Source of the DNA: Paucimonas lemoignei
GTDB lineage: Bacteria > Pseudomonadota > Gammaproteobacteria > Pseudomonadales > Pseudomonadaceae
Assembly (NCBI GenBank): GCA_900475325.1
Contig: LS483371.1
Span: 4,588,001 to 4,652,000, forward strand
Length of the DNA stretch: 64,000 nucleotides
Direction: 5' to 3'
Each line of letters begins with the position of its first letter. Within the stretch, counting starts at the first letter, position 1. Shown here in pieces: positions 19,823 to 43,814 of the stretch. The notes beneath the pieces are model-generated. The model was given only the letters and a program-made list of their open reading frames with translations. It was not told the origin of the DNA and searched no databases. A program made the translations under genes and the position numbers.

Positions 19823-22800
19823 TCAGGCCGGTTCCGAGGCCATCAGGGCAATATCAGTGGTCAGTTGCAGCGCCTTACTGTCGACAGCCCGTTTAAGCGC
19901 CTGGAAAACCGCATTGACGCTGCTCAGGTAGTCATCGTCGGCCATGGTCTCGTGCTGCGCGTCGAGCAAGTCCTGACGCTCATGAAAAGGCAGCCGGACC
20001 TTGTCGAAGTCCTCTTGAAAGTGATCCTCCAGGAAGATCATCCAGTCCTTTCGGGCAATCAACGACTGAAGAAATTCAGGCGTGCTTTCCCTCGCCAGCA
20101 CCCGGGCCTTGGCGTTATCGAGCATGCTCTGATCCACACCGGAAATGCCTTCGAACAACATCCCTTCAGACTGGCCCGGCAACGCCAGCTCTTCGCGCAG
20201 GCGAGTGGGATAGACAAGCCTGACCTCAACCTGATCCAGGCGAGGTTGAGTGACGACCCGGGCATTGAAGTCTTGCAGTGCAATTCGCTCCAGCTCATCC
20301 AGACGCTCCAGGCCGCGCATCAGCTTGAACATGCCCACCGGGGTTTTGCCTCCCGGCAGCGATTCCAGCTGGAAAACCTGCACCCGGATGTCCAGCATAT
20401 TGAAAGTGATCATGGTGCCGTCGCCGCAGGTTTCCGGATGCGCCGCCAGGGCGAACAGTTCTTGCTGCAACGCCTCGGATCCGGCCATTGCATCGATCAT
20501 TCGCCACAGGCGCTCGGTCAACAGGAGGCGGTTGTCCCGGTAGTCAGCGGTCAGCAGCAGGTCATTGATCAGCAGCACAAACGCCTGCGCACCCGGCTCA
20601 CGTTGCAAGGCGTCCCAGCGCTGGTGCTGCTGCTCGTCACCGGTTTCAGACAACCACTGGGCGGTGCTCCGTGCCCAGTTATCGGCCAGGATAGTGCCTA
20701 TCCCCATGCGCATCAGTGCCGCTTCGTCAAAGAGGGTTGCTGCCCTGGCAATCGTCTCGGCATTGAGCGGGTTCTGATGCAGACGCAGATAGAGCGTGGT
20801 ACGCCCGGCAATGGAATGTAACGTCTGTTCATCAATATCCATGATCTGGTTATGACGCAGGTCGACGTGTCTTAACGACTCACGCATACCCAGTCCTGAC
20901 GGTATGACGGTGAGTCCGCAGTCCCTGAGGCGGATCTCCATCAGCGCGGGCCATCGGCTGACATCCAGGAGCGCAGCAATATTGACGCCCGAGCCCTCCA
21001 GCAGCAGGATTTTCAGAGAACTCATACGCTGCAAGCACTGCATCCCTTGCGTATCTACAAGGATCGGGTTGCGACTCAGCGTCAGGGTTCGCAGGCGGGT
21101 CAAGCTATCCAGAATCTCCGGCACAGATTCGATCCGGTTGTTACTCAAGGACAACCTGCGCAACTCGGGGAATTGTCTGACAAACGCATGCGCCCCTTCA
21201 GCGGTCAGGGCAATGTTTTCCAGCCTCAGGGCCTGGACATGATCGAAATTCGCCAGGATCGGGGGCAATGCGCCGATGTCCAGATTGACCAGATTCAACT
21301 GGTACGCTGAGTCCGGATCGTTCGGATCAATCAACGCCTCGGACTGTCGACGCCAGCAAGCCAGGATGCGTATCCGGGCTGCTTCCCGAGCATCGCCTCT
21401 GACACCAGCCAGCGGCTCGGTTTGCGTATACCGGGCCTGCGCCACCCAGCTATCGAGGGTGTGTTCCAACGTTGAGTACTCTGCGGTCAACTCGTTCAAG
21501 CGAGCTCTGACCTCGGCTTTTTTTTCCTGAGCGCTTCCAGTACAGGCCTCAGCCAAGGCTTGCAGGAAGCTTGTTATCTGGCGAACGGTGAACTGGGGAT
21601 ATAACACCTTGACCGCCAGTTCCGGGGAGAAGACCGGTGCGTTGGTTCTGAACCTGTCGAACAACCCGCGCAAGCGGCCGCTCAATGGATAGCCCACCCG
21701 TCCGTCAGCCAAACGGTCGGGCCAGATCATCCGCGGTTTGATCTGCTGAATGCCCAGGGCCTTCTTTACCCGCGAGCGTTGCGAAGTTGCCAGATCACCC
21801 AGCATGTTCTCCAGCTGATGCACATCGTGGGTCAGTTGCGTCTGACTCGATAAGGTGTTGGATAAAGTCGTGCGCAGCCGCGAGTTTCCAAACCTGGTGG
21901 CTTCCCCGTTTCTGTTGTAGGTCTGGTAGCTGTTACCCGTCTGCACCACCACCACGTCCACATTCCCATCCGCCAGCGAAGCCCTGGTACTGCCGATGCG
22001 GCAGATTGGCTCGCCATTGAATGTGTTTTTACGCACTTCAATCACCAAGTGTCGCGGCCATTGAGCCAATGAGCTGATCAAATCCAGACTGACTATGTCG
22101 CTGTCAGGGCTCTCCATGTGCAGATAGAAACATTCCAGCGCGCGGTTTATGCGCAACTGCTGCAGGTAATCGCGGGCATGCTCGGCCAGGCGCAACGGAA
22201 TACGCGCCGCGCTACTCATGCGCTGTAACTCCACGCTGTCGGCGAAACTGATGACTTCCCTGGCGACACTGAACGGCAGGCTCGGAAAGTCGCGCTGTAG
22301 CAGCTTGATCAACGGGTCGTCGGAACGATAGTAATCGGCATAGAACAGATCAAAAAGGCGTCTGCGCCGACCGCGGGCTTGAGCTGCAATACGCAATGCC
22401 AACTGCTGCCCGATGCTTGGTGTTGACTGAACATTGACCAGAAGCGATTCGACTTCAACCGGCTGCAAGCCACCTAGTAAGGCATCCAGAAGTGTCTGCA
22501 TATTTCCCGGGGTGTACATCACATCGACGTTGCGCGTGGCGTTTTGTCCGTTCGCGTGCCTGCTCAGTACACGCCCTTGAGCGTCCACCCTGCGCAGCGC
22601 GCGTTGTTCCGGCCAGCCTGGCATCGTCACGATGAAGTCCAGAAAGGGCTCAATGGACGGACCAACACCGGCATCCGAAAGGCCGCTGTGGTCAGCAGCG
22701 CCTATCTTTTGCATGAGGTCAATGAAATCAGTGACTGACTTATCGATGAAAAAACGCTGGGCGCAATCAATCAACAACGCTGGGGGCACCAGCTTGTCCA

Positions 22801-26771: not shown

Positions 26772-29700
26772 TCAATCCGAAATATCGCCAGCCGGTGATT
26801 CCACGCGGGCGGTTTGCAAAGCGATTTCTTGCGTCAGCCTCATGGCGTGGGCCTGGGCGGCGGCTTCCCGGGCTTTCTGGATCACTGCAATCTGCTCCAG
26901 ATACTCGCCATCGGTGAGCCTGGCTTTATCGGCCGTCAGCAATGCATCGAGGCGCTCATGAAACGGCGAGTTGATCACTGAGAAGTCTTCGAAAAACCGG
27001 GTTTCGAGAAAATGCGTCCAGAATTCCCGGGCCACCAGGCTCTGCCAGAAACCGGTTTTGGCCTCCAGCGCGAGCACACGTCTTTCGGCGTCCGCCAGCA
27101 TGGTTTTCGATACCCGTGCCAGGGCGCTGAACACCATGCTCTGAATCTGTTCCGGCAATTTCAGCCGCTTCGCCAAGCCTATTCGATAGGCCATGCGCAC
27201 CTCAACATGGTCCACGGTCTCCCCTAGCAGTTCGCGGACATGGATATTTTCCAGGGCAATTTTTTCCACCTCGTCCAGGCGCACCATACCTCTGACCAGT
27301 TTGAACATTTCTATGGAATGCCCGGCGCTTTCCGGCATGGCCAGAATATTGAAGACACGCACATGCAGCTCCAGATCGCTGAACACCAGCGCCACCCCAT
27401 CGCCACAGGTCTGCGGATGCGCCGCCAGGGCATACAACTCTTCACGCAACGCCTGGTTATCAGCGATGGCATCCAGCACCGCCCAGACCCGCGCCCTCAG
27501 CGTCTGCCGATGATTGGCAAAATCCGAGCTTTGGGTCAGGTCGTTCAACACCTGAAAAAAATCGGCGGCATTAGGCTCAGCCGCCAAGTCATCCCAGCGC
27601 GCGCGCCTGGCGTGGTGGTTTTGCTCATTCATTTGCATCATCCACACCTCCCCCACATCCGCGGCCGGAGCGGCATGCGGCCGAACATCGTTGATGCCGA
27701 TTCGCGCTCTGGCGATGTCATCGAGAAAATGCTCGGCGCGCAGCAGGGTAGCGTCATCCAGCGGGTTGTCATGCAGTTGGACCCGCACAATGGCGCGGCT
27801 GAGATTTTCCAGAGCCATATCAGAGAGGCCGGCAATCTGGTTGTTGCGCAGATCGGCAATCCGCAGATGTGGACGGCTCCACAAGCCACCGGGAATGCCC
27901 TCGATACCCGTGTTGCGTGCGTCCAATACCCTGAGTTGATTGAAGGTGCTGATGTCCAGTAACGGGCCGATGGGGCAATGATCCAGGCTCAGCACCCTGA
28001 GAGCTACAAGGTTGTTCAGGTGTTGCGCAGACAACGGGTCCAGCGCCAGCGGATTATCGCAGAGCGACAAGCGCTCCAGCTTCGTGCAATACCCCAGCGC
28101 AGCGGGGATAGAAGACAACCGGTTGTCATCCAGTTCAAGGCGCCGCAGATTGTTGAACTGCACAAGGAGCTGATCCGCACTTGCAGCCGTCAACTCCAAT
28201 CGCTGAGCGCGCAGCACGCCGACGTGATCAAAGCTGACAGCCAGCGCAGGCAGCCGCTCGATACACAGGTCACTCAAATCCAGCTCATACCCCAGAAACG
28301 CCCCCGCATCGTCATAACGGCGCATGCCCAGTCGTTTCCAGCAGAGTTTGATCCGCAGGGCCGCCTCTGCCTTGGCCTCGAAATTACTTTCCCACAGGTC
28401 CGCCTCCTGGCTATCCGACTCATCCTCCAGCCAGTCGTCCAGGCTGTTCTCCAGGGTTTTATATTCCCTGGCCAGTGCCTTGAGCCGCTCTTTGGCAAAA
28501 GTATTAAAGGCCCACGCAGGGCCGGTGTGCTCAGCCCTCAACTGGCTGAGCATGGCCTGCACCTCGCCATCGATGAAACCCGGATACAGGCCTTTGATGG
28601 CGAATTCCGGGGAGTAGTCGGACGCACCGGCACGCAGCCGGTTGAACAGCCGATTCAGGCGACCGCTCAGGGGATAACCCACGCGGCCGTCGGCCAGACG
28701 CTGCGGCCACTTGAAGCCCGGCTTGATCGGCTGCATGCCCAGGATCTGCGCCACCTTGTTACGGCGAGTGACGGCAAGATCACCCAGCAACATGCGCAGC
28801 CCGGATTCCGTGGACTGAGATGACATCCCCATGGCCCGTCGTTCGGCATCTGGCAATGTTTGCATCAGTGCACCGAAGAACGGCTGATTAACTGCGCCGA
28901 GTGGATTGCCATGACTGTCGAATGCCTGATATCCACCCTCGCTCTTCACCACAATCTGATGAAGCATCGCGCTCTGCCTATCGCCCACTGCTTCAAGTAA
29001 ATCACCTTTCAAATCACCTTCGCGCACGTCGATGGCAAGGTCAGCGGGCCAGCCCGGCAAACTCGACAGCAGGCCAAAGCCCGCCTTGAAGGTGTCGGGG
29101 TTATCGGTGACCTTCAGGTAAAAGCCCTCGTTGGCGCGGTTCAGACGCAGCTGTTGCTGATATTCCCGGGCTTGCTCGGCTATCCCCAGCGGGACACGCC
29201 GGGTCGCCAGCATCCGGTTGCGCTGGGCCAAATTGGCAGTCTTGAGCAACTCTACGGCGACCGTGTCCGGCAGGCCGGGAAAATCCCGGCGGATCATCTT
29301 GATCAGCGGCAGCTGCGAGCCATTTTCCAGCGCGTAAAGTGCTTCCAGCAGCGGGCCTTTGGCGGTGTCGGCCATCTCCGACAGCACACCGGCCAACTGA
29401 GCAACCTGCCTGGGCTTGCCTACGACCGGCTTGCCCAACAGCGTTTCGATCTGCTGCTCGTCCAGACTGGTCAGCACAGACTCAAGCAAGGCGGTCATGC
29501 TGCCTCGCGCATAATTCACTTGGGTGATGGAGCTGGTTGCGGGCGAAACGTTCCAGCGCGCCACCACCGCACCCTCGGCATCCGTAAGGCTCAGAGCCCG
29601 GTTCTGCGGCCAGCGCGGGTTTGAGGCCAGTAAGCTCAGGAAGGGTTCGATGCGCGCCACATCCAGCTGATCCAGCTCGTTGCGGCCCATGAGACTGGTG

Positions 29701-31715
29701 AATTCCTCTATCTGCCGTTCGATGGCAAAACGTTGTGCGCTATCGCTGAGCAGCGCCGGCGCGGGCAGTTTTTCTACATGCACCTGACGCAACAGCGCAT
29801 CGTCAGCGCCGGTGATGCGCAGCATCCGTTGCGCGGCCAGTTCGGTGAATTGTTGCTGTACAGGCCCAAGGCGTTTGAAGGCTTTGACCTCATCCCAGGC
29901 CATGGGATTTTCCCCTTCATAACGCCATGCTCCCACGCCGTTGTGCTCCAGAAGCGGTGAGTGCAGTTCGGGGTCAGAGGGGTGTTTGACCCGCCATTTG
30001 TTCAGGGCAGGATCAAGCTCGATGCGATACAGCTTGCCGTCCAGGGGCAGCCAGGTTTTGCCGTCCACCGTGATACGTCCCTGCACATCGGCCGGAACCC
30101 AGGACGGCAACGCGACTTTCTGTTCGAAGCACGCCAGATCAGGCTTCCATAAGCGGGTCAGGCCATTGCGCAACTTGACCGGGCTGAGACTTTCGATAAA
30201 CGGTGACGGCAGCACTTTCGGAGCCGCATGCACCGCTGCGCCCAGCACCGCCATGGCCGCAAGGTTTTCACCAATGGCGAACACATGGTTGAGCGCCTCC
30301 TCGGTTTCCCCGTGAGTCCAGTCCTCCACCGCGACGAACGCTTCGTGCAACAACTGCCCGGCCGCCACCACCGCCATGACCGCCCCCAGCACCGGCATGA
30401 AGAACCCCGCCACCATCAGCACATCCATCCCCGCCGACTCGAACGCCTGCCAGCGCTTGAGCCGATTCTTGCGATCCTCGTCGCGGGTGGGCACGGCAAT
30501 CAGCCGGGAATCCTGATAGGTCTTGGTCAGCATTTGGTCGTACAGGAACTCGAATACCCGCTTGTCGATAGGGCGCTTTTCCAGATACAGCTCAGCGTCG
30601 GTGTCATAGATATAAAGCGGAAAAATACGCTCGGTATGGGGCGCCGGGCGTATGTTCAGGCGCTCGTTGAGCTTGGTGAAAAACAACTGACTGCGCTCCA
30701 GGCTGACAAAGCGCTGGAAGTAATGCTGATAGCGGCGGCTGGCCAACCGGTCGCGCAACTCATCGGTGAAGGCGGTGAACGATTCATATTCCTTTATCGG
30801 CGTGATCGGGTCGCCCGGCAGGTACACCACGCATGGCAGATCATCACCCGCAAGGTTTGGCTCGATGAGCAGCGCCCCTGACAGGCTGCAGCCTGGAAAC
30901 GCTTTGGTGTCGAGCATGTGCAACTGCCGAGGCCGCACCGGCGCCCCATGCCAGCGCGGGCTGACATTGGGCTGGACCAGCTCCAGCAACAGCGCGTAGA
31001 CATCGGCGCTGATGTCGTTTTTCATCCGGGCGATATGCGCCAGCACCTCGATTGCGTCACGCTCACTGTTCATGAAGGCTGTGGCAACGTTCCGCGCGGC
31101 CTGGACTTTGGCTTGACCTGCTGGCGTCGCGGGTTTGAATACAGAGTCCAGGTGCTTCTGATACTGGCCACCCAGGTCCAGAGTACGGGCCATGTCGGCG
31201 AACTGCTCCGGTTTGATATCCAGCACACCGCTGTAACGAAAACGAAAGCGCGGGATCCAGTCGCGGAACTCAGGTCCCCAGATCAACTGGGTGTGCAACC
31301 CGTCTGCAGGCAGCAGAGCCGAGCCCGAATTGAACGTTTCGCCCGCTTCAAAATTCTGCAGTGCGGCTTGTAACAGGGTTTGCTTGAGCGGCGTGCGCAG
31401 GCGCAGCAACAGATAGTCATCGTGGTGCATGGTCACCAACTGGTTGGCGGTCACGTCCAGACGCAGCTTGAAGCGATCAAACAGTGCCTGGGTCAACAAG
31501 GGCGTGGCAAACGCTTCAATCGGGATCAACCGGCTGCGTATGGGCTCCACGATCTGGCGGGAGAGCTGGCTTTTGAGCTGACTCTGGTGCAACGCCAGGC
31601 GCAACGATTTTGGCGCGTCGAGGTACCAGGACGGAAGCTTGGTCTTGAGGAATTCGAGGTTGGCGTGGTCAGTGCCAAAGGGAGAGGTAGCGTCAGGGGT
31701 ATCTGTAGTGGACAT
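26772..31715 (-). CDS. Giant LRR protein with NEL-type E3 ubiquitin ligase domain (copy 2)
   Basis: This 1647-residue paralogue of the gene at 19823 shares the same order of parts. A DUF6543-like region occupies about 1-1120. Leucine-rich repeats cover about 1155-1340 (LRRLELDDNRLSSIPAALGY, LERLSLCDNPLALD). The NEL ligase end has QTCGDG, placing Cys1437 in the Cys-x-Asp motif, followed by FSDLELHVRVF. It also contains a strongly hydrophobic stretch at about 428-457 (VAGFFMPVLGAVMAVVAAGQ) that copy 1 lacks, suggesting membrane insertion. It has no signal peptide. Start choice is weak: ATG 31745 lies inside an inverted repeat, and neither ATG has a clear ribosome site. If exported, it would ubiquitinate eukaryotic proteins. 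Confidence 0.8.
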   Translation of the reverse strand: MSTTDTPDATSPFGTDHANLEFLKTKLPSWYLDAPKSLRLALHQSQLKSQLSRQIVEPIRSRLIPIEAFATPLLTQALFDRFKLRLDVTANQLVTMHHDDYLLLRLRTPLKQTLLQAALQNFEAGETFNSGSALLPADGLHTQLIWGPEFRDWIPRFRFRYSGVLDIKPEQFADMARTLDLGGQYQKHLDSVFKPATPAGQAKVQAARNVATAFMNSERDAIEVLAHIARMKNDISADVYALLLELVQPNVSPRWHGAPVRPRQLHMLDTKAFPGCSLSGALLIEPNLAGDDLPCVVYLPGDPITPIKEYESFTAFTDELRDRLASRRYQHYFQRFVSLERSQLFFTKLNERLNIRPAPHTERIFPLYIYDTDAELYLEKRPIDKRVFEFLYDQMLTKTYQDSRLIAVPTRDEDRKNRLKRWQAFESAGMDVLMVAGFFMPVLGAVMAVVAAGQLLHEAFVAVEDWTHGETEEALNHVFAIGENLAAMAVLGAAVHAAPKVLPSPFIESLSPVKLRNGLTRLWKPDLACFEQKVALPSWVPADVQGRITVDGKTWLPLDGKLYRIELDPALNKWRVKHPSDPELHSPLLEHNGVGAWRYEGENPMAWDEVKAFKRLGPVQQQFTELAAQRMLRITGADDALLRQVHVEKLPAPALLSDSAQRFAIERQIEEFTSLMGRNELDQLDVARIEPFLSLLASNPRWPQNRALSLTDAEGAVVARWNVSPATSSITQVNYARGSMTALLESVLTSLDEQQIETLLGKPVVGKPRQVAQLAGVLSEMADTAKGPLLEALYALENGSQLPLIKMIRRDFPGLPDTVAVELLKTANLAQRNRMLATRRVPLGIAEQAREYQQQLRLNRANEGFYLKVTDNPDTFKAGFGLLSSLPGWPADLAIDVREGDLKGDLLEAVGDRQSAMLHQIVVKSEGGYQAFDSHGNPLGAVNQPFFGALMQTLPDAERRAMGMSSQSTESGLRMLLGDLAVTRRNKVAQILGMQPIKPGFKWPQRLADGRVGYPLSGRLNRLFNRLRAGASDYSPEFAIKGLYPGFIDGEVQAMLSQLRAEHTGPAWAFNTFAKERLKALAREYKTLENSLDDWLEDESDSQEADLWESNFEAKAEAALRIKLCWKRLGMRRYDDAGAFLGYELDLSDLCIERLPALAVSFDHVGVLRAQRLELTAASADQLLVQFNNLRRLELDDNRLSSIPAALGYCTKLERLSLCDNPLALDPLSAQHLNNLVALRVLSLDHCPIGPLLDISTFNQLRVLDARNTGIEGIPGGLWSRPHLRIADLRNNQIAGLSDMALENLSRAIVRVQLHDNPLDDATLLRAEHFLDDIARARIGINDVRPHAAPAADVGEVWMMQMNEQNHHARRARWDDLAAEPNAADFFQVLNDLTQSSDFANHRQTLRARVWAVLDAIADNQALREELYALAAHPQTCGDGVALVFSDLELHVRVFNILAMPESAGHSIEMFKLVRGMVRLDEVEKIALENIHVRELLGETVDHVEVRMAYRIGLAKRLKLPEQIQSMVFSALARVSKTMLADAERRVLALEAKTGFWQSLVAREFWTHFLETRFFEDFSVINSPFHERLDALLTADKARLTDGEYLEQIAVIQKAREAAAQAHAMRLTQEIALQTARVESPAGDISD

Positions 31716-31721
31716 CGGATG

Positions 31722-31753
31722 TACCGTGAATGACAAAGGAGCCATTCACGGTA
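31722..31753. promoter_or_regulatory. Inverted repeat at the start of the second NEL gene
   Basis: TACCGTGAATG (31722-31732) and CATTCACGGTA (31743-31753) are perfect 11-base arms around a 10-base spacer. On the minus strand the repeat ends seven bases before ATG 31715 and contains the upstream ATG 31745. It could be an operator, or a leader hairpin that limits ribosome access. Confidence 0.6.
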
Positions 31754-33355: not shown

Positions 33356-36300
33356 ATGACCCAATCTTTCATGACCCCGCGCGGGCACATGGCCAACCTC
33401 GTCGCCAAAGCACAACGCGATGACCCCCTCGACGCAGCGGGTATGTGCCCGCTGATGATGCAGACCCTGCAACTGCTGCCGGTGCGCTATGGCCGGGTCG
33501 AAGACCTCGATCCGTCCCGTGAGCTGAGCATGCCTTATACGCTGGAGTCCCGGCCGTTGGGGTTTCGTCTGATTCGAGATGGTTTTTTGTACGTCATCGA
33601 CAGTTCGACGGGTTTGCTGCACGAGTACAAGACGCAGGACGGTTCGGTGGTGGCCCTGCTGTTCAAGGGCAGCGAAGTGACTGCCAATCGTCGCGCTGCC
33701 GTCATCGAGACTGATCCGGCGCTGCTGTTTTCCCGCTCGGCCACGCTGCACGTAGCCTTTTCCGAGGTGCAGTGGACGGCGTTCAAATGCGCTCAGGTGA
33801 TGAAAGTCGCGGCCGAGCGCGAGTATTTCATGCAGCGGGTGAGCTTCGAAAACGTCCAGTACGGCAAAGGCGTGGATTTGTTCGATGATCGGCACATGGC
33901 CGTCTGGCTGGCCGAAACCAGTGCCAGTTGGGCGGACAAACCGGGCGATACAAGCCCCGAGATCCCCTACGCCTGGGAACACGCGCCGCTGTACCGGCAG
34001 ACCATCCTCGAAGAATTCACCAGCCAGGTCACCGCTGAGCACAAGCATGATTTTCTGTTTCTCGCCGTACGTGATGACGTCGGCGTGATGCGTGATCTGG
34101 CCCAGCATCAGGATCAGGTCGTGGAGCAGATCGCCAACTGGGCGCAGAGCCAGAATGGCACAGTGGAGCGCGATTATTTGCTGGGCTGCTATATCGAATC
34201 CCTGACCCAGATCACCGAAGAGGACCTGGGTAAACGGGCCAAAGCCAGCCCTGCGCTCAAGGCGTTGCTGGACGACATTGAACGCCTGCAAGAGCCGGAA
34301 CGCAGCCAGACTCGCCAGACGTTGCGGGAGGTGATGAGCGAAGACAGTAGCCAACACCCTGCTCCGCGCCTTGAAGACCCCGATTTACCTGCCGAGCTGC
34401 AGGCTCGCCTCAAAGCACTCCCTCCAAGCGCCGAGCCGCCGCATATGTACGCAGGCCATGAAGTTCGGGTGTACACGCTTCAACAGTATTACCTTGAGCA
34501 ACGCTTCGTCGGCACCAGCCCCGCGTTCATCGCCCGGCATCGTCAGACGCTGTGGGGACTCTATCGCCAGATGGACAAACCCACCAAAGACGCACTCTAC
34601 GGTGCCAAATTCGGCCAGCGCGGCATCAACGACCTGATTGATCGCCCGCGCATGGACGCCTTTCTCAAGCAGCAACGGGCGGTGTTGCAGCCGCTCAACG
34701 AAGAACTGGAAAAGATCACTCAGGACCGCATCAACCTGTTGATCAAAAACCGTCTGCACCGGGCGATCTGGTATTACGACATCGAAGACGCCGAGCAAGT
34801 CGACCACGCCTTGCTCACCGAATACGCCTGCCTGAAAGACATATGCCGCAGTGACAAGGCAGTCGATTCAGTGCTGGCCTGGCTCAAGCTCAACCCCGCC
34901 ATGTCCCGCCCGATGTTCTACGCCGCGCCCTTGAGTGCGCAAACCGAACTGGCTGTGCAGTTCGCCGCCTTCACCAACGCAGGCTGGCTGTTGATCAAAG
35001 ATGCCCCCACGTGGATGGAGCGCCTCAAACAATGGGGCGCAGGCCTGGTGCTCGACACCGAGCGACTGTCGCCCACGACCCAAGTTAACCTCTCGGCCGC
35101 GTGGGGCACTCTGGCTCCGGCGTTGCAGACGGGTATCCAGCAGGCCGTGCAGGCCTTTTTGCAGGAGCTGGACAAAGGGCAATTGCCAGACATGGAAACG
35201 CTGTTTCGCCGCCTGCCCAACACTGCGGGTGTGGCGATCCTTGAGGCAGCGCGGCGCGAGAACGTCACCTTCCAATTCGCCAGCGCCGAAGACCTGCAAC
35301 ACTTGGGCAAGACCCTCCAGGCCGTGCAGCAGAAACGTGACCACCTGCGCTACCTGACCAACTACGCCCGCGAGCAAAAAGCCCGTGACCCGTACTGGCA
35401 CCAGAGCACCGATGCCGACTGGACCAGGGAACAACGCCAGAAGACTCAGCAGTCCTTGAGCGAACTGGAACAACACATGGCCAAGGCCATGAGCCCGGTG
35501 GCCGATCTGCCGACCGACTCAACCCACCTGCAAACCGCGTCCTCCGGCAAACCGGGGTTGGCGCTGGTGTTTCCGGCACAGCAGCATCGTGAGGTGCGTT
35601 CGGTGCTGGAGAGTTATCGCAAGGGGGTGATGACGGCACCCAAGGCCGGGTTGCTGGGGGATGGGGCTGGGTTGTTGGTGTTTGTGGCGCAGGTGGTGAA
35701 TTTGGTGGTTGTGAGCAGGGAGGTTTTATCGCAGCCGAAGGCATCTAAAGATCTAACACCTTTGCTTACCCCGATTACCGCGACCATAGCAGCAGGATTC
35801 GGCGCGGCACAGGGTATTGCGGATACGGCACTAGGCGCACATGCAGCAGAGCTGGCGAGAAACCTGAAGAAAGCTGAGCTGCTGGGTGTCCATGTGCAAA
35901 TGGGGAAAATGCATATTGGCCTTGGAATGGCCGGCTACTTGGGAGGAATGATTGCTTCCTCTATGAGCCTCGCGAGCTCACATAAAAATTGGCAAGAGTC
36001 GGTCCGCAACGGTAATCGCGATGCGCAGATCGGAGCCACCCTCAGCATGCTGGGCAATAGCGGTTTTCTAGCCAGCAACAGCTATGGTTTTGCTCACACG
36101 ATTCAAGCCTTTAGGCATGTGCTTGCTGCCGAAGCTGGTAGCGCCGCGCGAACCGCTGCATGGGCGGCTGCGGGCGTACGCCTGTCCACGATTTTCTTAC
36201 GGTTCAACGTAGCAGGGATTTTGCTCACAGCTCTTGAGCTGTCCGGCAGTTGGTACTACAACCGCAATAATCTCAGCCGTCATGATCGCTGGTTACTGAG

Positions 36301-36877
36301 TACCCCATGGGGCCAGGGGCAGGATCCTGACCAATGCCTTTCATTGTCTCTTGCGCATTACCTCAAAGAACTGCGCGCGCATTACCAAGCCCCACGCATA
36401 CAAATCATACCGAGCAGCGATGACGTGCCGCGCCAGTTTTTGCTGCATTTCCCGACGCTGTACGCTGTCGAGCTGACCAAACCTGTCGGGAGTCATGCCA
36501 GCGCTAGCGTGCTCAATATTGGTGGCTACCAAGTTGCTCGCGAACAAACCGGACGGGACCGAACCCCAGAGCGCTGGAGGCCTTTGGGAGAGGCCTTGGA
36601 AGATCGTATGCACATCAAGCAACTCAATCCCTTGATCGTGGAATTCACGGACTTGCGCAGCCTGATCAAACCAGAGGTACTCAGTCATTCCGACATCGTG
36701 CTCTCAATCCAGCTGGGGCCCATCATTTCTTCAGGGCAACACGAAGCCAATGTGTATGAGGTACGCTTCCCGGTGGTAGGCGAAAGTGGCGACTTCCCGA
36801 CGGTCTACCTCGACCCACCGGGAGAGTGCGAGTACTTCAAGATCAATCCAGACCTCCTGCCTATGGTGAGTAAATAA
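33356..36877 (+). CDS. VasX-like T6SS pore-forming effector (BTH_I2691 family)
   Basis: This 1173-residue protein begins with the VasX N-terminal type region (about 20-200: CPLMMQTLQLLPVRYGRVED, then SRPLGFRLIRDGFLYVID), used for loading on the T6SS. A long helical middle follows. From about 755 to 965 come at least four hydrophobic helices (LLVFVAQVVNLVVVSREVL, ITATIAAGFGAAQGIADTAL, GLGMAGYLGGMIASSMSL, FNVAGILLTALELSG), then a beta-rich end. VasX of Vibrio cholerae inserts in target inner membranes and dissipates their potential. AAGGAG precedes ATG 33356. The stop is one base before the first putative immunity gene. Base composition falls from about 35740 on. Confidence 0.85.
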   Translation: MTQSFMTPRGHMANLVAKAQRDDPLDAAGMCPLMMQTLQLLPVRYGRVEDLDPSRELSMPYTLESRPLGFRLIRDGFLYVIDSSTGLLHEYKTQDGSVVALLFKGSEVTANRRAAVIETDPALLFSRSATLHVAFSEVQWTAFKCAQVMKVAAEREYFMQRVSFENVQYGKGVDLFDDRHMAVWLAETSASWADKPGDTSPEIPYAWEHAPLYRQTILEEFTSQVTAEHKHDFLFLAVRDDVGVMRDLAQHQDQVVEQIANWAQSQNGTVERDYLLGCYIESLTQITEEDLGKRAKASPALKALLDDIERLQEPERSQTRQTLREVMSEDSSQHPAPRLEDPDLPAELQARLKALPPSAEPPHMYAGHEVRVYTLQQYYLEQRFVGTSPAFIARHRQTLWGLYRQMDKPTKDALYGAKFGQRGINDLIDRPRMDAFLKQQRAVLQPLNEELEKITQDRINLLIKNRLHRAIWYYDIEDAEQVDHALLTEYACLKDICRSDKAVDSVLAWLKLNPAMSRPMFYAAPLSAQTELAVQFAAFTNAGWLLIKDAPTWMERLKQWGAGLVLDTERLSPTTQVNLSAAWGTLAPALQTGIQQAVQAFLQELDKGQLPDMETLFRRLPNTAGVAILEAARRENVTFQFASAEDLQHLGKTLQAVQQKRDHLRYLTNYAREQKARDPYWHQSTDADWTREQRQKTQQSLSELEQHMAKAMSPVADLPTDSTHLQTASSGKPGLALVFPAQQHREVRSVLESYRKGVMTAPKAGLLGDGAGLLVFVAQVVNLVVVSREVLSQPKASKDLTPLLTPITATIAAGFGAAQGIADTALGAHAAELARNLKKAELLGVHVQMGKMHIGLGMAGYLGGMIASSMSLASSHKNWQESVRNGNRDAQIGATLSMLGNSGFLASNSYGFAHTIQAFRHVLAAEAGSAARTAAWAAAGVRLSTIFLRFNVAGILLTALELSGSWYYNRNNLSRHDRWLLSTPWGQGQDPDQCLSLSLAHYLKELRAHYQAPRIQIIPSSDDVPRQFLLHFPTLYAVELTKPVGSHASASVLNIGGYQVAREQTGRDRTPERWRPLGEALEDRMHIKQLNPLIVEFTDLRSLIKPEVLSHSDIVLSIQLGPIISSGQHEANVYEVRFPVVGESGDFPTVYLDPPGECEYFKINPDLLPMVSK

Positions 36878-36878
36878 C

Positions 36879-38006
36879 ATGGCAAAGGAGATTGCAGCCC
36901 CGCCGCCGATAAACCACACCCCTTATGCTGGCATGCAAGAGGCTTTCCCAACGGGGCAGGTTACTTATCTTGCCCCGCTACCGCTTCCAACCGATTTACC
37001 TGCGCAGGATTACGGGCAGGCTGTCGGAGAAGTGAACAAAACCTACTTAGACTTTGGAGTCGGCTTGCCTGCTGTTTTCGCCTGGCAAATGGGGCTGGGC
37101 ACACCTTTCTGGGCAATTTGGTGCTATGGACTTTTTGTACCTTTTTTCATGTGGTTCCTGGGAATTGCGGACGGGAACTCAATGGAAGACTCTGTAGAAT
37201 TTGCGCTACAAGTTATGCCTTACACACTGGAGATGGGAGGCTGGGGCGCCGCTGTGGCCCTAACCATCTACATCACCATCACCTTCCACCACCTCCTCAA
37301 ATACAAAGAAGTCGTCCCCACCCGCTTCAACCGTCAACGCCGGGAAGTCTGTTTCGTCCCGCGCGGCCACACCGAGCCTATCTTCGTGCCGTGGGAGTCG
37401 TTATCAGCTTGGGTGGTGCAAGCTCGAAGCGTGACGCAGTACGGCCCCGATATTCGCTACGCCATGGGCGTCGGTTTTTATCATCCGCCCCACGACGAGC
37501 ATTACAGCCTGGAGTTTTTCTGCGCGGGGTTTGATCTGGCGGTGTGCAATTGGGAGGCGATTCGCGCGTACATGGAGTACGAGGTGCACAGCCTCAAGGA
37601 CATCCAGGACCCGCTGGAGCTGCAAAACCCCGGCGACCCGCCCCACGAAGGCCTGCACACGTTTTACAACGCTCGCGAACGCATGCGTCGACGGCGCAAG
37701 AATCGTGAGGTGGGTTTTTTCTATCCCTTCTGGTGGTACCTGTACCACGTGCTGACCCTGTGGACCTTGCCCAACTACCTCACCGAATGGGAGATACGCC
37801 GCATCAAGAGCATCGGCCGCGCGGTAGTGCCCGATGCCATGCAACGCTGGTCCGAACCGCTCCCGCCTGAGCAATGGGCCAAGCCCAGCGCTGAACTGCT
37901 GCGCATGAGCCAGGCAGTAAAAACCCTGCGCGAGAAACGGCCGAGTCAGAACCTTGCGTCACGATTTGCCGAGGTGCCGCGGGCGGATCGAGGCACTGCC
38001 CAATGA
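36879..38006 (+). CDS. DUF6708-like membrane protein, putative immunity protein (copy A)
   Basis: This 375-residue protein has a soluble N-terminus, two hydrophobic spans (about 62-97 and 120-139), a conserved cytoplasmic-looking domain (RFNRQRREVCFVPRGHTEPI, about 149-168) and a second hydrophobic patch (FYPFWWYLYHVLTLWTL, about 285-301). I recall DUF6708 proteins next to VasX-like effectors. Membrane location and one-base spacing after a pore-forming toxin fit an immunity role like TsiV2, but this is inference. It differs from copies B and C mainly at residues 75-133 (TPFWAIWCYGLFVPFFMWFL here). The variable window is visibly poorer in GC than the rest. Confidence 0.75.
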   Translation: MAKEIAAPPPINHTPYAGMQEAFPTGQVTYLAPLPLPTDLPAQDYGQAVGEVNKTYLDFGVGLPAVFAWQMGLGTPFWAIWCYGLFVPFFMWFLGIADGNSMEDSVEFALQVMPYTLEMGGWGAAVALTIYITITFHHLLKYKEVVPTRFNRQRREVCFVPRGHTEPIFVPWESLSAWVVQARSVTQYGPDIRYAMGVGFYHPPHDEHYSLEFFCAGFDLAVCNWEAIRAYMEYEVHSLKDIQDPLELQNPGDPPHEGLHTFYNARERMRRRRKNREVGFFYPFWWYLYHVLTLWTLPNYLTEWEIRRIKSIGRAVVPDAMQRWSEPLPPEQWAKPSAELLRMSQAVKTLREKRPSQNLASRFAEVPRADRGTAQ

Positions 38007-38024
38007 ACCAGGGAAACGCTCAAC

Positions 38025-38104
38025 CTGTAGGAGCCAACGTGTTGGCGAGACGTTGGCACTGCGTCATCCGAAATGCCGCCTCGCGAACAAGTTCGCTCCT
38101 ACAG
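38025..38104. repeat. REPIN between copies A and B
   Basis: Left arm CTGTAGGAGCCAACGTGTTG (from 38025) and right arm ending AAGTTCGCTCCTACAG (38104) form an imperfect hairpin. It lies within the duplicated unit, between stop 38006 and start 38142, and may weaken transcription of the next copy. Confidence 0.8.
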
Positions 38105-38141
38105 ACAAGCGCCAGCCTCGTGCCCGAGGTGAAGAAATAAC

Positions 38142-39269
38142 ATGGCAAAGGAGATTGCAGGCCCGCCGCCGATAAACCACACCCCTTATGCTGGCATGCA
38201 AGAGGCTTTCCCAACGGGGCAGGTTACTTATCTTGCCCCGTTACCGCTTCCAACCGATTTACCTGCGCAGGATTACGGGCATGCTGTCGGAGAAGTGAAC
38301 AAAACCTACTTAGACTTTGGAGTCGGCTTGCCCGCTGTTTTTGCTTGGCAAATGGGGTTGGGTATACCTTTTTGGGGTATGTGGTTTTTTGGACTTTTCG
38401 CACCTGCTCTTGCTTGGTTGTTCGGGATAATGTTCGGCGGCTCCATGGAGGAGGCTGTAGAGTTCGGACTTCAAGTGATGCCAGAAGGCTTCGAAGTAGG
38501 AGGCTGGGGCGCCGCCGTGGCCCTCACCATTTTCCTCTCCATCACCTTCCACCACCTCCTCAAATACAAAGAAGTCGTCCCCACCCGCTTCAACCGTCAA
38601 CGCCGGGAAGTCTGCTTCGTCCCTCGAGGCCACACCGAGCCTATCTTCGTGCCATGGGAATCCCTGTCAGCCTGGGTAGTGCAGGCTCGAAGCGTGACGC
38701 AGTACGGCCCCGATATCCGCTATGCCATGGGCGTCGGCTTTTATCATCAGCCCCACGATGAGCATTACAGCCTGGAGTTTTTCTGCGCGGGGTTTGATCT
38801 GGCGGTGTGCAATTGGGAGGCGATTCGCGCTTACATGGAATACGAGGTGCACAGCCTCAAGGACATCCAGGACCCGCTGGAGCTGCAAAACCCCGGCGAC
38901 CCGCCTCATGAGGGTGTGCACACGTTTTACAACGCGCGAGCGCGGATGCGTCGACGGCGTAAAAATCGTGAAGTGGGTTTCTTCTATCCGTTCTGGTGGT
39001 ACCTGTACCACGCGCTGACCTTGTGGACCCTGCCCAACTACCTCACCGAATGGGAGATACGCCGCATCAAGAGCATCGGGCGCGCGGTGGTGCCCGATGC
39101 CATGCAACGCTGGTCCGAACCGCTCCCGCCTGAGCAATGGGCCAAGCCCAGCGCTGAACTGCTGCGCATGAGCCAGGCAGTAAAAACCCTGCGCGAAAAA
39201 CGGCCCAGCCAGAACCTTGCCTCCCGATTTGCCGAGGTGCAGCAGGCGGATCGAAGTAAAACCCAATGA
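38142..39269 (+). CDS. DUF6708-like membrane protein, putative immunity protein (copy B)
   Basis: A second 375-residue copy is identical to A and C over most of its length (for example residues 139-200) but has its own sequence in the membrane window (IPFWGMWFFGLFAPALAWLF, then GIMFGGSMEEAVEFGLQVMPEGFEV, quoted in part). All three copies keep the same length, so variation is by substitution without insertions or deletions. Its C-terminus (QQADRSKTQ) is the most diverged of the three. Its spacer has GAGGTGAAGAAATAAC before ATG instead of the effector tail. There is no strong Shine-Dalgarno site, so expression may rely on read-through from the effector transcript. Confidence 0.75.
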   Translation: MAKEIAGPPPINHTPYAGMQEAFPTGQVTYLAPLPLPTDLPAQDYGHAVGEVNKTYLDFGVGLPAVFAWQMGLGIPFWGMWFFGLFAPALAWLFGIMFGGSMEEAVEFGLQVMPEGFEVGGWGAAVALTIFLSITFHHLLKYKEVVPTRFNRQRREVCFVPRGHTEPIFVPWESLSAWVVQARSVTQYGPDIRYAMGVGFYHQPHDEHYSLEFFCAGFDLAVCNWEAIRAYMEYEVHSLKDIQDPLELQNPGDPPHEGVHTFYNARARMRRRRKNREVGFFYPFWWYLYHALTLWTLPNYLTEWEIRRIKSIGRAVVPDAMQRWSEPLPPEQWAKPSAELLRMSQAVKTLREKRPSQNLASRFAEVQQADRSKTQ

Positions 39270-39287
39270 GCATGGCAAGCCCCCAAC

Positions 39288-39367
39288 CTGTAGGAGCCAA
39301 CGTGTTGGCGAGACGTGCGCACTGCGTCATCCGAAATACCGCCTCGCGAACAAGTTCGCTCCTACAG
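39288..39367. repeat. REPIN between copies B and C
   Basis: This is the same type as the element at 38025-38104, with a few substitutions in the loop. It occupies the same place relative to the flanking genes, confirming that the REPIN was copied together with the gene. Confidence 0.8.
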
Positions 39368-39404
39368 ACAAGCGCCAGCCGCATGCCCATGGTGAGTAAA
39401 TAAC

Positions 39405-40532
39405 ATGGCAAAGGAAATTGCAGGTCCGCCGCCGATAAACCACACCCCTTATGCTGGCATGCAAGAGGCTTTCCCAACGGGACAGGTTACTTATCTTGCC
39501 CCGTTACCCCTGCCCACCGATTTACCTGCGCAGGATTATGGGCATGCTGTCGGAGAAGTGAACAAAACCTACTTAGACTTTGGAGTCGGATTGCCCGCTG
39601 TTTTCGCCTGGCAAATGGGGCTGGGCGGCCCGTTTTGGGCAGTTTGGTTTTTTGGATTATTTTTCCCCGCACTTGACTGGTTACTTTCAATCGCGGAGGG
39701 AAGGAGATTGAAGCAGGCTAATGAGTTTTCACTACAAATGATCCCTGGCGGCCTGGAAATGGGAGGCTGGGCGGCAGCAGCGGCCCTCACCATCTACCTC
39801 ACCATCACCTTCCACCACCTCCTCAAATACAAAGAAGTCGTCCCCACCCGCTTCAACCGCCAACGCCGCGAAGTCTGCTTCGTCCCTCGAGGCCACACCG
39901 AGCCTATCTTCGTGCCATGGGAATCCCTGTCAGCCTGGGTAGTGCAGGCTCGAAGCGTGACGCAGTACGGCCCCGATATCCGCTATGCCATGGGCGTCGG
40001 CTTTTATCATCAGCCCCACGATGAGCATTACAGCCTGGAGTTTTTCTGCGCGGGGTTTGATCTGGCGGTGTGCAATTGGGAGGCGATTCGCGCTTACATG
40101 GAATACGAGGTGCACAGCCTCAAGGACATCCAGGACCCGCTGGAGCTGCAAAACCCCGGCGACCCGCCTCATGAGGGTGTACACACGTTTTACAACGCGC
40201 GAGCGCGGATGCGTCGACGGCGTAAAAATCGTGAAGTGGGTTTCTTCTATCCGTTCTGGTGGTACCTGTACCACGTGCTGACCTTGTGGACCCTGCCCAA
40301 CTACCTCACCGAATGGGAGATACGCCGCATCAAGAGCATCGGCCGCGCGGTGGTGCCCGATGCCATGCAACGCTGGTCCGAACCGCTCCCGCCTGAGCAA
40401 TGGGCCAAGCCCAGCGCTGAACTGCTGCGCATGAGCCAGGCAGTAAAAACCCTGCGCGAAAAACGGCCCAGCCAGAACCTTGCGTCACGGTTTGCCGAGG
40501 TGCAGCGGGCGGATCGAGGCACTGCCCAATGA
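39405..40532 (+). CDS. DUF6708-like membrane protein, putative immunity protein (copy C)
   Basis: The third 375-residue copy shares its first 74 residues with B and its last residues (RADRGTAQ) with A. The membrane window (GPFWAVWFFGLFFPALDWLL, SIAEGRRLKQANEFSL) is distinct, with a more basic loop. Both flanks resemble those of copy A: the effector tail upstream, and CAATGAACC-GGGAAACGCTC downstream. C thus looks like a copy of the A unit with a changed window. It is the last gene of the array and is convergent with the DUF4123 adaptor gene. The role is inferred, as for copy A. Confidence 0.75.
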   Translation: MAKEIAGPPPINHTPYAGMQEAFPTGQVTYLAPLPLPTDLPAQDYGHAVGEVNKTYLDFGVGLPAVFAWQMGLGGPFWAVWFFGLFFPALDWLLSIAEGRRLKQANEFSLQMIPGGLEMGGWAAAAALTIYLTITFHHLLKYKEVVPTRFNRQRREVCFVPRGHTEPIFVPWESLSAWVVQARSVTQYGPDIRYAMGVGFYHQPHDEHYSLEFFCAGFDLAVCNWEAIRAYMEYEVHSLKDIQDPLELQNPGDPPHEGVHTFYNARARMRRRRKNREVGFFYPFWWYLYHVLTLWTLPNYLTEWEIRRIKSIGRAVVPDAMQRWSEPLPPEQWAKPSAELLRMSQAVKTLREKRPSQNLASRFAEVQRADRGTAQ

Positions 40533-40756: not shown

Positions 40757-41629
40757 TCAGTGAGTTGCGCTTCGCTGCGCAGCCAGTTCAGCGGCACGCT
40801 CTACCCGCTGGAAGCTTGTCAACTCGGATTTGACGTTTAAAAGCTCGGCAATATCCGGATGCTGAACCAGCAAATCATCTCCGAGAGAACCGAAGACATT
40901 GGCGTACAGCCAGATTTCCCGCTCCCGCTCGAAGCCTCTTGCGATAGCCGAGCGGGCGATCTGATGGATGTGTTCCAGGCGCTGTTGCGGACTCAGATCG
41001 GCTCGATACTCAGGAAAGAAGCGCTGCATATGCAGATACAGCGCTGCAATGGATTTATCAAAGGCTACCGCTTGTAACGCAGCCCATTGAGCATCGCTTG
41101 CCGAATAAGGTTGCTCGTACATCGGGATGGCGGCTTCTGAGGGGCGTCTGAAGTGCGTCCATTCAGAAAGCGGCGTATTGGCAATCATGATCTGCTGGCA
41201 GGGGCCAAACAGATCCGCGCGCGGATAATCATCGCCACCAAACAAGGCACGTGCCACTGCAGGGTCGGAGATACGCAGGTACATCTCTTCGTCCTGAGGC
41301 GGCCGAAAGCTGGTCAGCCAGCGCATATGGGCCAGCAACTGTTGCCACGAGCCATCACTGACCAGCACGTACCCCCATTGGTGCGCGATATTGGCCAGGA
41401 ACTGCAAGAGCACTGGGTCGTCGCGATCCCGCAAGCGTATCAGACAAGGGGAGCAGTGGCTGATTGATGCCCATTGGGTGCCCAGATAGAGCACGTCAAC
41501 CTGGACTGCTGGAGACCACTCATAAATGCGCCGCAGAAGATCTTTGACCTGCAGGGCATCCAGAAGAAGGCCGACCGTTCGATCCCATGGAAAGTCTTCG
41601 GGCAAGGGATTGATAAACGTCATGCTCAT
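40757..41629 (-). CDS. DUF4123 T6SS effector adaptor
   Basis: This 290-residue soluble protein has the DUF4123 pattern: an N-terminal VDVLYLGTQW strand, HCSPCLIRL, then HQWGYVLVSD and LLAHMRWLTSFRPPQDEEMYLRISDP-type text at about 85-130, with a helical C-terminal half. DUF4123 adaptors (TEC/Tap, VasW in Vibrio) hold an effector and load it on its cognate VgrG. Its ATG 41629 overlaps the vgrG stop as ATGA, so it is translated with vgrG. The likely client is the VasX-like protein 4 kb away, although that gene is on the opposite strand. A second ATG at 41623 is possible. Confidence 0.85.
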   Translation of the reverse strand: MSMTFINPLPEDFPWDRTVGLLLDALQVKDLLRRIYEWSPAVQVDVLYLGTQWASISHCSPCLIRLRDRDDPVLLQFLANIAHQWGYVLVSDGSWQQLLAHMRWLTSFRPPQDEEMYLRISDPAVARALFGGDDYPRADLFGPCQQIMIANTPLSEWTHFRRPSEAAIPMYEQPYSASDAQWAALQAVAFDKSIAALYLHMQRFFPEYRADLSPQQRLEHIHQIARSAIARGFEREREIWLYANVFGSLGDDLLVQHPDIAELLNVKSELTSFQRVERAAELAAQRSATH

Positions 41630-43662
41630 AGCGCCCCCTTCCTTGCCTCGGCACACCGGCGACAATACCCCTCCCCGCGTTCAACATTCCTTGATTGTTG
41701 GTAGGGAACCAACGAAGGAGCCCCAGGTAACGGCACTTTGGGAAGCAGAGCACTAGGTAAGGCTGGAGCTGCTGGCATCCCTGGCGTGGGTACACCTCCG
41801 GGCAAAATCGGCACGCTGCTGAAAATCCCAGCCGGGCTGATATGTATCCAGTGCGGTCCGGCTTTAATCGTCGCGCTGAGGCCAGCGTTGATCACCACAT
41901 TGCTCTTGGAAGACTCCAGATGCACTTGCGCAAAAGCACTCACTAAATAACTGCTCGCCTCAATATGCTGACTCCCCACCACCGTCAGCGAGTCATCCTC
42001 ACCAATCTTGGTATTACGCGCGCCGTGGGTCAGGTGATGTTCGTCGGCCTTCAACTCATGGCTAGACAGCCCGGCCACCAGCACGCTGCGTTGGTTATCC
42101 ACTTGGATCGACTGATCATTAAGCACCAGCTCGGACCAGTCCCGCTGCGCGCGGATGGCGATTTCTTCGCGGCCTTTGGCGTCTTCGATGCGCAGCTCGT
42201 TGTAGCCGGCGCCACTTGGGCTGCTTTGGGTTTTGAGCAGGGTCTGGGTCTTTTGGGCGGGCAGGTTAAGCGGCACGCGGGTGGTCGCGTTGGGCAAGCA
42301 GGCTTGAACGTAGGGCTGATCCGGGTCTGACTCGAAATAGCCGACCACCACTTCCATGCCGACCCGGGGGATCATCGCGGCGCCGTATTGATCATGGGCC
42401 CAGCCGGTGGCGACCCGCAGCCAGCAGCTGGAATGCTCATTAAGCCCGCCCTCGCGGTCCCAGAAGAACTTGACCTTGACCCGCCCGTATTCGTCGCAAT
42501 GCACTTCTTCACCGGGCGGCCCGGTGACTAACGCGTGCTGGCTGCCGAGCAGTCGGGGTTTGGGATGTTTGAGCGGTGGACGGAAGGCCGTCAGCCCCGG
42601 AATCGCTTCAAAGCTGTTGCGATAGCCCTGACTAAACTCGCCGGGCATAACAACGTGATTCGCGAACTCTTCCAACACCTGCGGCTGTTTGCCAGTGTGG
42701 ACCACAGAGGTCAGCAGCCACTGAGCGTTCCAGTCCGGGTTGGGGTGTTCGAGCTGAAACAGATGGCCGCTGATCAGGGCCGGTTGGTCACTTTCGCCAC
42801 TGGCCTGACGGTAATCACTGCGGTGGCGCTCCAGAGCTTTGCGGGCCTGACGACCACCCGTGTCGCCGTCGGTATACGCCGCCGGGTAAGCGTAATCTTC
42901 GAGGTCCTTGCGCCCTTCGCCATCGGCGGATTTGAGCAGATCCACGGTTGGCTGCTCGAAGTGATAATTCTGCCGCGCGACTTTGCCGGTGCGTGTAGCA
43001 AGGCGCAGCCTGAAGCTGCTGATGACCGGCGCCTCGCCGACCAATCCACTGCCCTGCTTGTACAGAACCGGCGCCTGCACAATGGGCAGCTGGATCGGAT
43101 CGTCAGCGAACACCAGCAGGTGTTTATCAGGGCTGTGCTGGAAGTGAAAATGCAGGCCTTCTTCTTCACACAGGCGCCGCAGAAAATGCAGGTCAGTTTC
43201 GTGGTATTGGGTGCAGTACTCACGAGCTTTACACGGCTCGCGCAGCTTGAAGGCGTATTCGTCGGCAAGGATGCCGTGGTCTTTGAGCAGTTGGCCGATG
43301 ATGTCGGGCACACTGCGGTTCTGGAAGATTCGATGATTGCTGCGGTACTCAAGCCGTTTAAGGTTGGGCACCAGCTGAATGAAGTAATGGGTGAAGCGCT
43401 TGCCGGAATCGCCCTGGCTGATTTCGCCGACCTGGCCGTGCAGGCCGTTGCCCCCGCCGTTGAGAAAGCCATCAAAGCGTAAATAGGCCTGACGATGCAG
43501 CAGCGCTTCCAAATCAAGATTGGCCCGCTCACTGACCAGCTCAATCCGCGCACTGAACGGCCGGCTGATTGCCTCCTGGGCGTGGAATTCCAGCACACGA
43601 AGATCGTGCTCGATACCAGCAATATCCAGCGTAAACGAGGCGCGATTGGCTTGGGTCGACAT
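41626..43662 (-). CDS. vgrG: T6SS tip protein VgrG
   Basis: This 678-residue protein has the VgrG order: gp27-like domains (FTLDIAGIEHDLRVLEFH to about 330), a gp5-like OB fold (ATGWAHDQYGAAMIPRVGMEVVVGYFESDPDQPYV-type text near 410-445), then KTQSSPSGAGYNELRIEDAKG and the beta-helix needle. It carries no C-terminal enzymatic domain. Instead there is a proline-rich tail (LPGGVPTPGMPAAPALPS) ending in CRRCAEARKGAL. It forms the membrane-piercing trimer on the Hcp tube and carries the adaptor-bound effector. AAGGA lies eight bases before ATG 43662. Core T6SS genes are absent, so this is a satellite island. Confidence 0.93.
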   Translation of the reverse strand: MSTQANRASFTLDIAGIEHDLRVLEFHAQEAISRPFSARIELVSERANLDLEALLHRQAYLRFDGFLNGGGNGLHGQVGEISQGDSGKRFTHYFIQLVPNLKRLEYRSNHRIFQNRSVPDIIGQLLKDHGILADEYAFKLREPCKAREYCTQYHETDLHFLRRLCEEEGLHFHFQHSPDKHLLVFADDPIQLPIVQAPVLYKQGSGLVGEAPVISSFRLRLATRTGKVARQNYHFEQPTVDLLKSADGEGRKDLEDYAYPAAYTDGDTGGRQARKALERHRSDYRQASGESDQPALISGHLFQLEHPNPDWNAQWLLTSVVHTGKQPQVLEEFANHVVMPGEFSQGYRNSFEAIPGLTAFRPPLKHPKPRLLGSQHALVTGPPGEEVHCDEYGRVKVKFFWDREGGLNEHSSCWLRVATGWAHDQYGAAMIPRVGMEVVVGYFESDPDQPYVQACLPNATTRVPLNLPAQKTQTLLKTQSSPSGAGYNELRIEDAKGREEIAIRAQRDWSELVLNDQSIQVDNQRSVLVAGLSSHELKADEHHLTHGARNTKIGEDDSLTVVGSQHIEASSYLVSAFAQVHLESSKSNVVINAGLSATIKAGPHWIHISPAGIFSSVPILPGGVPTPGMPAAPALPSALLPKVPLPGAPSLVPYQQSRNVERGEGYCRRCAEARKGAL

Positions 43663-43814
43663 GGGGCAAGTCCTTGGCCGAAAAAAGCCGCAACTTTGCA
43701 CTTTATCGATTGGGTCGTCAGTCAGGCGTACGACCCGAAGTTTGTGGGAAGTTTCTGTATTTATTTACCCAACACCCTGCCACGAAAACTCCGCAATCAC
43801 TGATGGGCACGGAC

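Follow-up and report, generated by a model that had tools for sequence, protein, structure and literature searches.

Tke5 of Pseudomonas putida is described as a pore former, and its partner Tki5 as neutralizing constructs that contain the alpha-helical region of Tke5 (PMC12909789). In Vibrio cholerae, clusters of the type VI secretion system (T6SS) are reported to carry extra immunity genes behind an effector-immunity pair, which have been explained by effector displacement (PMC5361080). In contact-dependent growth inhibition (CDI), CdiI hairpins are described as cognate-specific in assays, giving little protection against other ionophores, and as polymorphic, like their toxins, at the predicted interface (PMC11630599). 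Here we describe a locus of Paucimonas lemoignei (GCA_900475325.1, contig LS483371.1) in which a VasX/Ptx2-like effector gene, effector A, is followed by three tandem immunity-like genes (A1, A2 and A3) that are nearly identical except for one segment. Coordinates of this locus are positions within the window, which is the whole stretch of 64,000 nucleotides analysed (4,588,001-4,652,000, forward strand). A second locus of the same genome, at 392-398 kb, holds effector B and two further immunity-like copies (B1 and B2). With a probability of roughly 0.8, judged from sequence, we read the array as a T6SS effector of the VasX/Ptx2 type with a cognate immunity gene (A1) and two orphans (A2 and A3), where specificity would reside in an exchangeable membrane hairpin and protection would be the function of the encoded proteins.

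Effector A aligns over nearly its whole length with Ptx2 of Pseudomonas aeruginosa (PDB 9qpv), and the locus resembles Tke5-Tki5 of the VasX/BTH_I2691 effectors, as that pair is described, in that a pore former would be joined to a neutralizing partner. However, neither a hypervariable hairpin nor a tandem immunity array is among the features described for Ptx2 or Tke5-Tki5 in the accessible part of PMC12909789. As in V. cholerae, extra immunity genes follow an effector-immunity pair, but the arrays outlined in PMC5361080 consist of differing immunity types, whereas here one protein recurs with an exchanged hairpin and homogenized flanks. CdiI proteins offer a comparable working principle, immunity by a two-helix membrane hairpin; they are described as 72-100 residues long with little beyond the hairpin (PMC11630599), whereas here the predicted hairpin lies within a conserved protein of 375 residues. 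The recombinase-associated acquired interbacterial defence (rAID) systems of gut Bacteroidales likewise form orphan immunity arrays with changes at the effector interface, but are summarized as SUKH-domain proteins in recombinase-associated clusters (PMC12247911), unlike the putative membrane hairpins behind an effector found here. Both orphan arrays and hairpin immunity that diversifies with its toxin have precedents, and it is their combination in one homogenized scaffold that appears to be new. Neither a hypervariable hairpin in this immunity family nor a specificity segment split between effector and immunity gene was found among the open-access titles and abstract openings listed, with the subscription literature mostly outside that search.

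Three immunity-like genes that differ mainly in one segment

The effector and its array are arranged as follows, codons 75-134 of each immunity-like gene being called the variable segment.

33356..36877, + strand: effector A, 1173 aa, VasX_N domain, Ptx2 toxin homologue
35693..36232, + strand: variable pore segment, effector A residues ~780-959; divergent from effector B, co-varies with the immunity variable segment in relatives
36879..38006, + strand: immunity-like gene A1, probable cognate; begins 1 bp after the effector A stop; first-position variable segments track the effector in relatives
37101..37280, + strand: variable segment of A1
38142..39269, + strand: immunity-like gene A2, probable orphan; reading frame intact; variable segment nearest to homologue P0004 (0.95)
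38364..38543, + strand: variable segment of A2
39405..40532, + strand: immunity-like gene A3, probable orphan with B-type hairpin; reading frame intact; cassette in common with B1
39627..39806, + strand: variable segment of A3, B1-like from codon 75 to ~115

A1, A2 and A3 each encode 375 amino acids, start at distances of 1263 and 1263 bp, and align without gaps inside the genes. In codons 75-134 the proteins differ at 24/60 (A1-A2), 26/60 (A1-A3) and 25/60 (A2-A3) residues, against 2/74, 2/74 and 0/74 in codons 1-74 and 4/231, 3/231 and 1/231 in codons 135-365. The first-pass annotation, which had seen three 375-residue proteins alike except at about residues 75-133 with the segment kept at constant length, was right in both respects, but it missed that the last 10 codons of A2 diverge too (5/10 against A1, 4/10 against A3). 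The predicted structure (pLDDT 82, a per-residue confidence score) places the variable segment on a hairpin of two helices, 66-97 and 102-141, and hydropathy peaks lie at 79-97 and 122-140. Searches of Pfam, NCBIfam and PADLOC matched the A1-A3 proteins to no family, and fold searches gave no lead to the role of the conserved C-terminal part. A protein search returned 1698 homologues, and the 120 listed of these carry no Pfam domain and are nearly all named 'hypothetical' or 'uncharacterized protein'. A1 lies on the same strand as the effector gene and 1 bp behind it, a position expected of a T6SS immunity gene.

That a VasX-type effector adjoins the array, as the earlier annotation had it, is supported by an N-terminal VasX_N (MIX-type) domain (PF20249, 77.7 bits against a cut-off of 27) and by the alignment of Ptx2 (9qpv_A) to residues 6-1169 of 1173 (790 bits). 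The NCBIfam model NF041559 scores 114 bits, under its cut-off of 150, and we therefore name the protein VasX/Ptx2-like and do not assign it to that model. Its start at 33356 is our choice, since the list of open reading frames (ORFs) opens upstream at a TTG (33308). Long helices are predicted at residues 765-971, where hydropathy also peaks; as a member of the VasX/BTH_I2691 effectors, effector A would form an ion-selective pore in the target membrane.

Effectors A and B are near-identical to residue ~760 and divergent beyond: up to residue 780 the proportion of differing synonymous sites (pS) is 0.02-0.28, over 781-960 it rises to 0.60-0.72, and behind that segment it is 0.33-0.39. Their first immunity genes, A1 and B1, have a pS of 0.59-0.76 over codons 1-125 and of 0.06-0.38 in the codons that follow. 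At its N-terminus A3 matches its own array (0/74 residues differ from A2), and its DNA is 74% identical to B1 in codons 61-74 and completely identical in codons 75-90, with a sharp junction at codon 74/75. A3 groups with B1 at 23/30 informative sites in the variable segment and at 3/74 outside it (Fisher P 5.9e-14). A3 is thus a mosaic of its own N-terminus and the B1 hairpin, which is direct evidence for the exchange of a cassette of ~40 codons. The genome also encodes two VasX_N effectors that are less closely related (L019 and L020), each followed by 1-2 immunity-like genes, ~30% identical to A1.

Synonymous sites diverge together with the residues, a point that the first-pass annotation had missed as well. 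Between the A copies, synonymous divergence (dS) is 0.86-1.23 in the variable segment, 0.12-0.27 in codons 1-74 and 0.05-0.31 in codons 135-365, and in each comparison the variable segment has significantly more synonymous differences than the C-terminal part (Fisher P 4.9e-5 for A1-A2, 2.4e-3 for A1-A3 and 5.2e-15 for A2-A3). The ratio of non-synonymous to synonymous divergence (omega) is 0.23-0.42 in the variable segment, above the remainder of codons 1-365 (0.00-0.10) but below 1. The earlier suggestion of diversifying selection visible in dN/dS is not supported by these values; a raised dS with omega below 1 points to old divergence of a segment between homogenized flanks and not to ongoing positive selection. 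Array mates in relatives (56 pairs) have a median dS of 1.69 in the variable segment and 0.21 C-terminally. For 52 pairs that come from different loci and have variable segments at least 80% identical, the medians are 0.47 and 0.36. Among the 30 listed of these 52 pairs, omega in the variable segment is at most 0.23 in 26 of the 28 that have a value. The hairpin segments therefore look like old lineages, each apparently under purifying selection, with flanks that seem to be homogenized within arrays.

Relatives of the array and co-variation with the effector

A match at E <= 1e-60 was found in 46/398 genomes of the genus, the source genome included, with the best 4 candidates per genome scored. 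The locus set took in 40 loci from matching genomes (not every one), 80 of the 155 relatives with a named genome, another three loci of the source genome and the window itself. Filtering, which removed minority-strand ORFs, immunity ORFs under 330 aa and groups holding an immunity protein identical to a kept one, reduced 155 groups to 114 effector-immunity groups. Several draft assemblies end near arrays (L050, L051, L069-L072, L084 and others), so copy numbers from drafts may be too low. A single stop codon lies inside some immunity-like copies (genomes G016, G139, G207, G275 and G353), which fits decaying orphans.

The mosaic pattern is family-wide. C-termini are more than 90% identical in 55/76 same-locus pairs, and in all of these (55/55) the variable segments are at most 80% identical (median 0.50). 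The nearest relative is an array mate for the C-terminus of 41/58 genes in clade 0, 6/17 in clade 1 and 10/14 in clade 2, and for the variable segment of 4/58, 2/17 and 4/14. The 63 homologues whose C-terminus is at least 80% identical to that of A1 fall into 33 variable-segment types by single linkage at 80%, and into 49 at 90%. Counting immunity gene families, this suggests, underestimates repertoires.

Co-variation with the effector was examined in clade 0 for 37 effector ORFs that reach 680 aa and are accompanied by a first copy, in clade 1 for 14 loci and in clade 2 for 12 loci, with effector positions numbered after each clade's reference. Effector ORFs shorter than 680 aa were dropped; among those kept, several are truncated at a contig end or miss the N-terminus. 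L057 and L082 were left out of one analysis. In clade 0, co-variation scanned along the effector, with overall effector identity corrected for, has its maximum at 801-860 (0.36-0.38, 0/300 permutations) and stays raised to 980, with lower isolated peaks at 341-380 (0.22), 461-500 (0.16) and 1041-1080 (0.24). Effector 781-980 tracks the first-copy variable segment (partial rho 0.40, P 0.001, 37 loci) but not the first-copy C-terminus (-0.14), and effector 1000-1200, although nearer to the immunity gene, does not track the variable segment (-0.05). At the 22 clade 0 loci with a second copy, the first-copy variable segment reaches a rho of 0.50 (P 0.001) and the second-copy one a rho of 0.07 (P 0.29), a difference with P 0.006 under random exchange of the two. 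In clade 1 the first-copy variable segment follows effector 781-980 (rho 0.49, P 0.009) and 801-860 (0.61, P 0.002), and effector 1000-1200 is raised as well (0.37). Across 90 close locus pairs, of which clade 0 contributes 77, clade 1 10 and clade 2 3, the pore segment follows the first-copy variable segment (0.65) and N-terminus (0.46) but neither the C-terminus (-0.15) nor the second-copy variable segment (-0.06, n=25); 20 disjoint close pairs give 0.59 (P 0.006) for the variable segment and 0.53 for the N-terminus.

Several observations weigh against a hairpin matched to the pore segment. The first-copy N-terminus also tracks effector 781-980 in clade 0 (partial rho 0.26, P 0.007), and the second-copy variable segment follows effector 1000-1200 (0.25, P 0.015). 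In clade 1, at 8 loci, first copies give 0.40 (P 0.062) and second copies 0.32 (P 0.107), and cross comparisons of first with second copies correlate too among the close pairs (0.32, n=75). The expectation that segment type goes with effector type, which the first-pass annotation had raised, is supported for the effector-adjacent copy in clades 0 and 1 but not in clade 2, whose 12 loci show no tracking at effector 781-980. When 36 x 59 segments are mapped against each other, further pairs also pass, and the strongest lie outside the variable segment. L148 and L159 have similar pore segments (0.94) and dissimilar first-copy variable segments (0.58); this exception is instructive, as the second copy of L148 matches the first copy of L159 (0.98). 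First copies of one segment type did not differ significantly from extra copies matching a first copy elsewhere (9 vs 19 pairs, P 0.33). Finally, A3 may fit effector B only in part, as its N-terminus is of the A type. Since clade 0 itself served to choose segment 781-980, the permutations take no account of phylogeny and other segments pass, the first/second contrast and the disjoint pairs are the stronger evidence. The comparison of relatives suggests that variation in the hairpin goes with variation in the effector, and that both genes are otherwise held alike.

Exchanged tracts and the origin of extra copies

Two pairs of loci, L055/L099 and L119/L138, show almost no synonymous differences between effector residue ~781 and immunity codon ~150 and diverge outside this tract (0.32 and 0.17 in effector 480-740; 0.28 and 0.28 in immunity 161-360). 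Conversely, 17 mirror pairs, not mutually independent, were picked for likeness in effector 480-740 and immunity 161-360 with unlike pore segments; their variable segments differ too in 17/17 (pS 0.36-0.84). Together with the A3 cassette, the 55/55 pairs and the dS of array mates, the tracts uphold the proposal of the first-pass annotation that segments are exchanged on a specificity-like region and that recombination keeps the rest uniform.

Effector-like stretches were found in 28/63 spacers between immunity genes of relatives (tblastn, E <= 0.01). They nearly always end near the effector 3' end; the shortest has 11 residues, and two, in L068 and L080, have 884. Displacement of old effectors by new ones, with the immunity genes staying behind, would be expected to produce such remnants, as in the model for V. 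cholerae (PMC5361080). L080 has a first effector-immunity pair, then a second effector in two pieces, then further immunity copies. A match of at least 0.8 to the variable segment of a first copy behind an effector ORF elsewhere was seen for 15/36 extra copies in clade 0 and 3/13 in clade 1. By tblastn, effector remnants were detected in 0/2 of the window's own spacers, which are:

38007..38141, + strand: spacer A1-A2; 20-mer repeat at 38083-38102; last ~30 bp like the effector B end (by eye)
39270..39404, + strand: spacer A2-A3; 20-mer repeat at 39346-39365; last ~30 bp like the effector A end (by eye)

The 20-mer is part of the duplicated unit and has 36 copies genome-wide; we take it to be probably of the Pseudomonas repetitive extragenic palindromic (REP) kind.

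Interpretation and surroundings of the locus

In the reading that we favour, A1, directly behind effector A, would be the cognate immunity protein, and A1-A3 would reside in the inner membrane. A2 and A3 would be orphans retained against other effector variants, A3 against effector B of the same genome. Recognition is most likely achieved by the two-helix hairpin (~66-141) meeting the pore helices (~780-960) of the incoming effector in the inner membrane, and the rest of the protein would serve as a common scaffold. New specificities may come by homologous recombination, either in one tract that holds the pore segment, the gene junction and the hairpin or as a hairpin cassette arriving alone. 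A displaced effector would leave its immunity gene, and sometimes a 3' remnant, while recombination among copies would keep the flanks uniform.

The tracking could also arise from linkage, if the effector 3' half and the immunity 5' half move together by recombination and the hairpin does not read the pore helices. Tracts do cross the gene junction, and the immunity N-terminus tracks the pore segment too. However, two pairs of loci, each within a single genome, speak against linkage alone: L064/L065 and L050/L051 have similar effector 3' ends (pS 0.01 and 0.10) although the two blocks on either side both differ. So does the clade 0 effector, where 1000-1200 does not track (-0.05) though nearer than 781-980 (0.40), although clade 1 tracks there (0.37); we consider this explanation improbable. 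It is scarcely credible that any hydrophobic hairpin suffices and the variable segment merely drifts beside a conserved scaffold. The segment is predicted to span the membrane and omega is higher there than in the flanks, but synonymous sites diverge as well, segments of the same type are conserved across loci (omega mostly <0.25, 28 values among 52 pairs) and first-copy segments track the effector.

A1-A3 might instead not be immunity genes and might help the effector in some other way, such as loading or insertion into the membrane. This is compatible with the lack of a Pfam, NCBIfam or PADLOC family match and with a strongly conserved C-terminal part. We regard it as very unlikely, as full-length extra copies without an effector of their own are kept in many loci, a separate DUF4123 adaptor gene is present, and in the related Tke5 system co-expression of Tki5 is reported to rescue cells (PMC12909789).

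Beyond the favoured reading of effector, cognate and orphans, we see about an even chance that pore helices and immunity hairpin form a split specificity locus. They would then be matched haplotypes of many old types across Pseudomonas species, probably under frequency-dependent selection, with the rest of both genes homogenized by recombination. Such a locus would parallel, in bacteria, the linked loci of self-recognition, and tandem orphan hairpins would be a memory of past or neighbouring weapons. If the favoured reading holds, recognition of a widespread pore-forming effector family narrows to ~45-60 residues, and how membrane immunity proteins read a toxin becomes a matrix question for which A1, A2, A3, B1 and B2 are natural near-identical controls.

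Downstream, two T6SS-related genes are convergent with the array:

40757..41665, - strand: DUF4123 (Tap-type) adaptor (PF13503, 71 bits, cut-off 25.8)
41626..43701, - strand: VgrG spike protein (PF05954, PF22178 and PF04717, each above cut-off)

The source genome has one match to the T6SS_VipA sheath family and 8 VasX_N genes. Two large genes on the - strand of the window, at 26772-31745 and 19823-24823, encode proteins of 1657 aa and 1666 aa that combine ToxA_N and leucine-rich repeats with an NEL-type E3 ligase domain.

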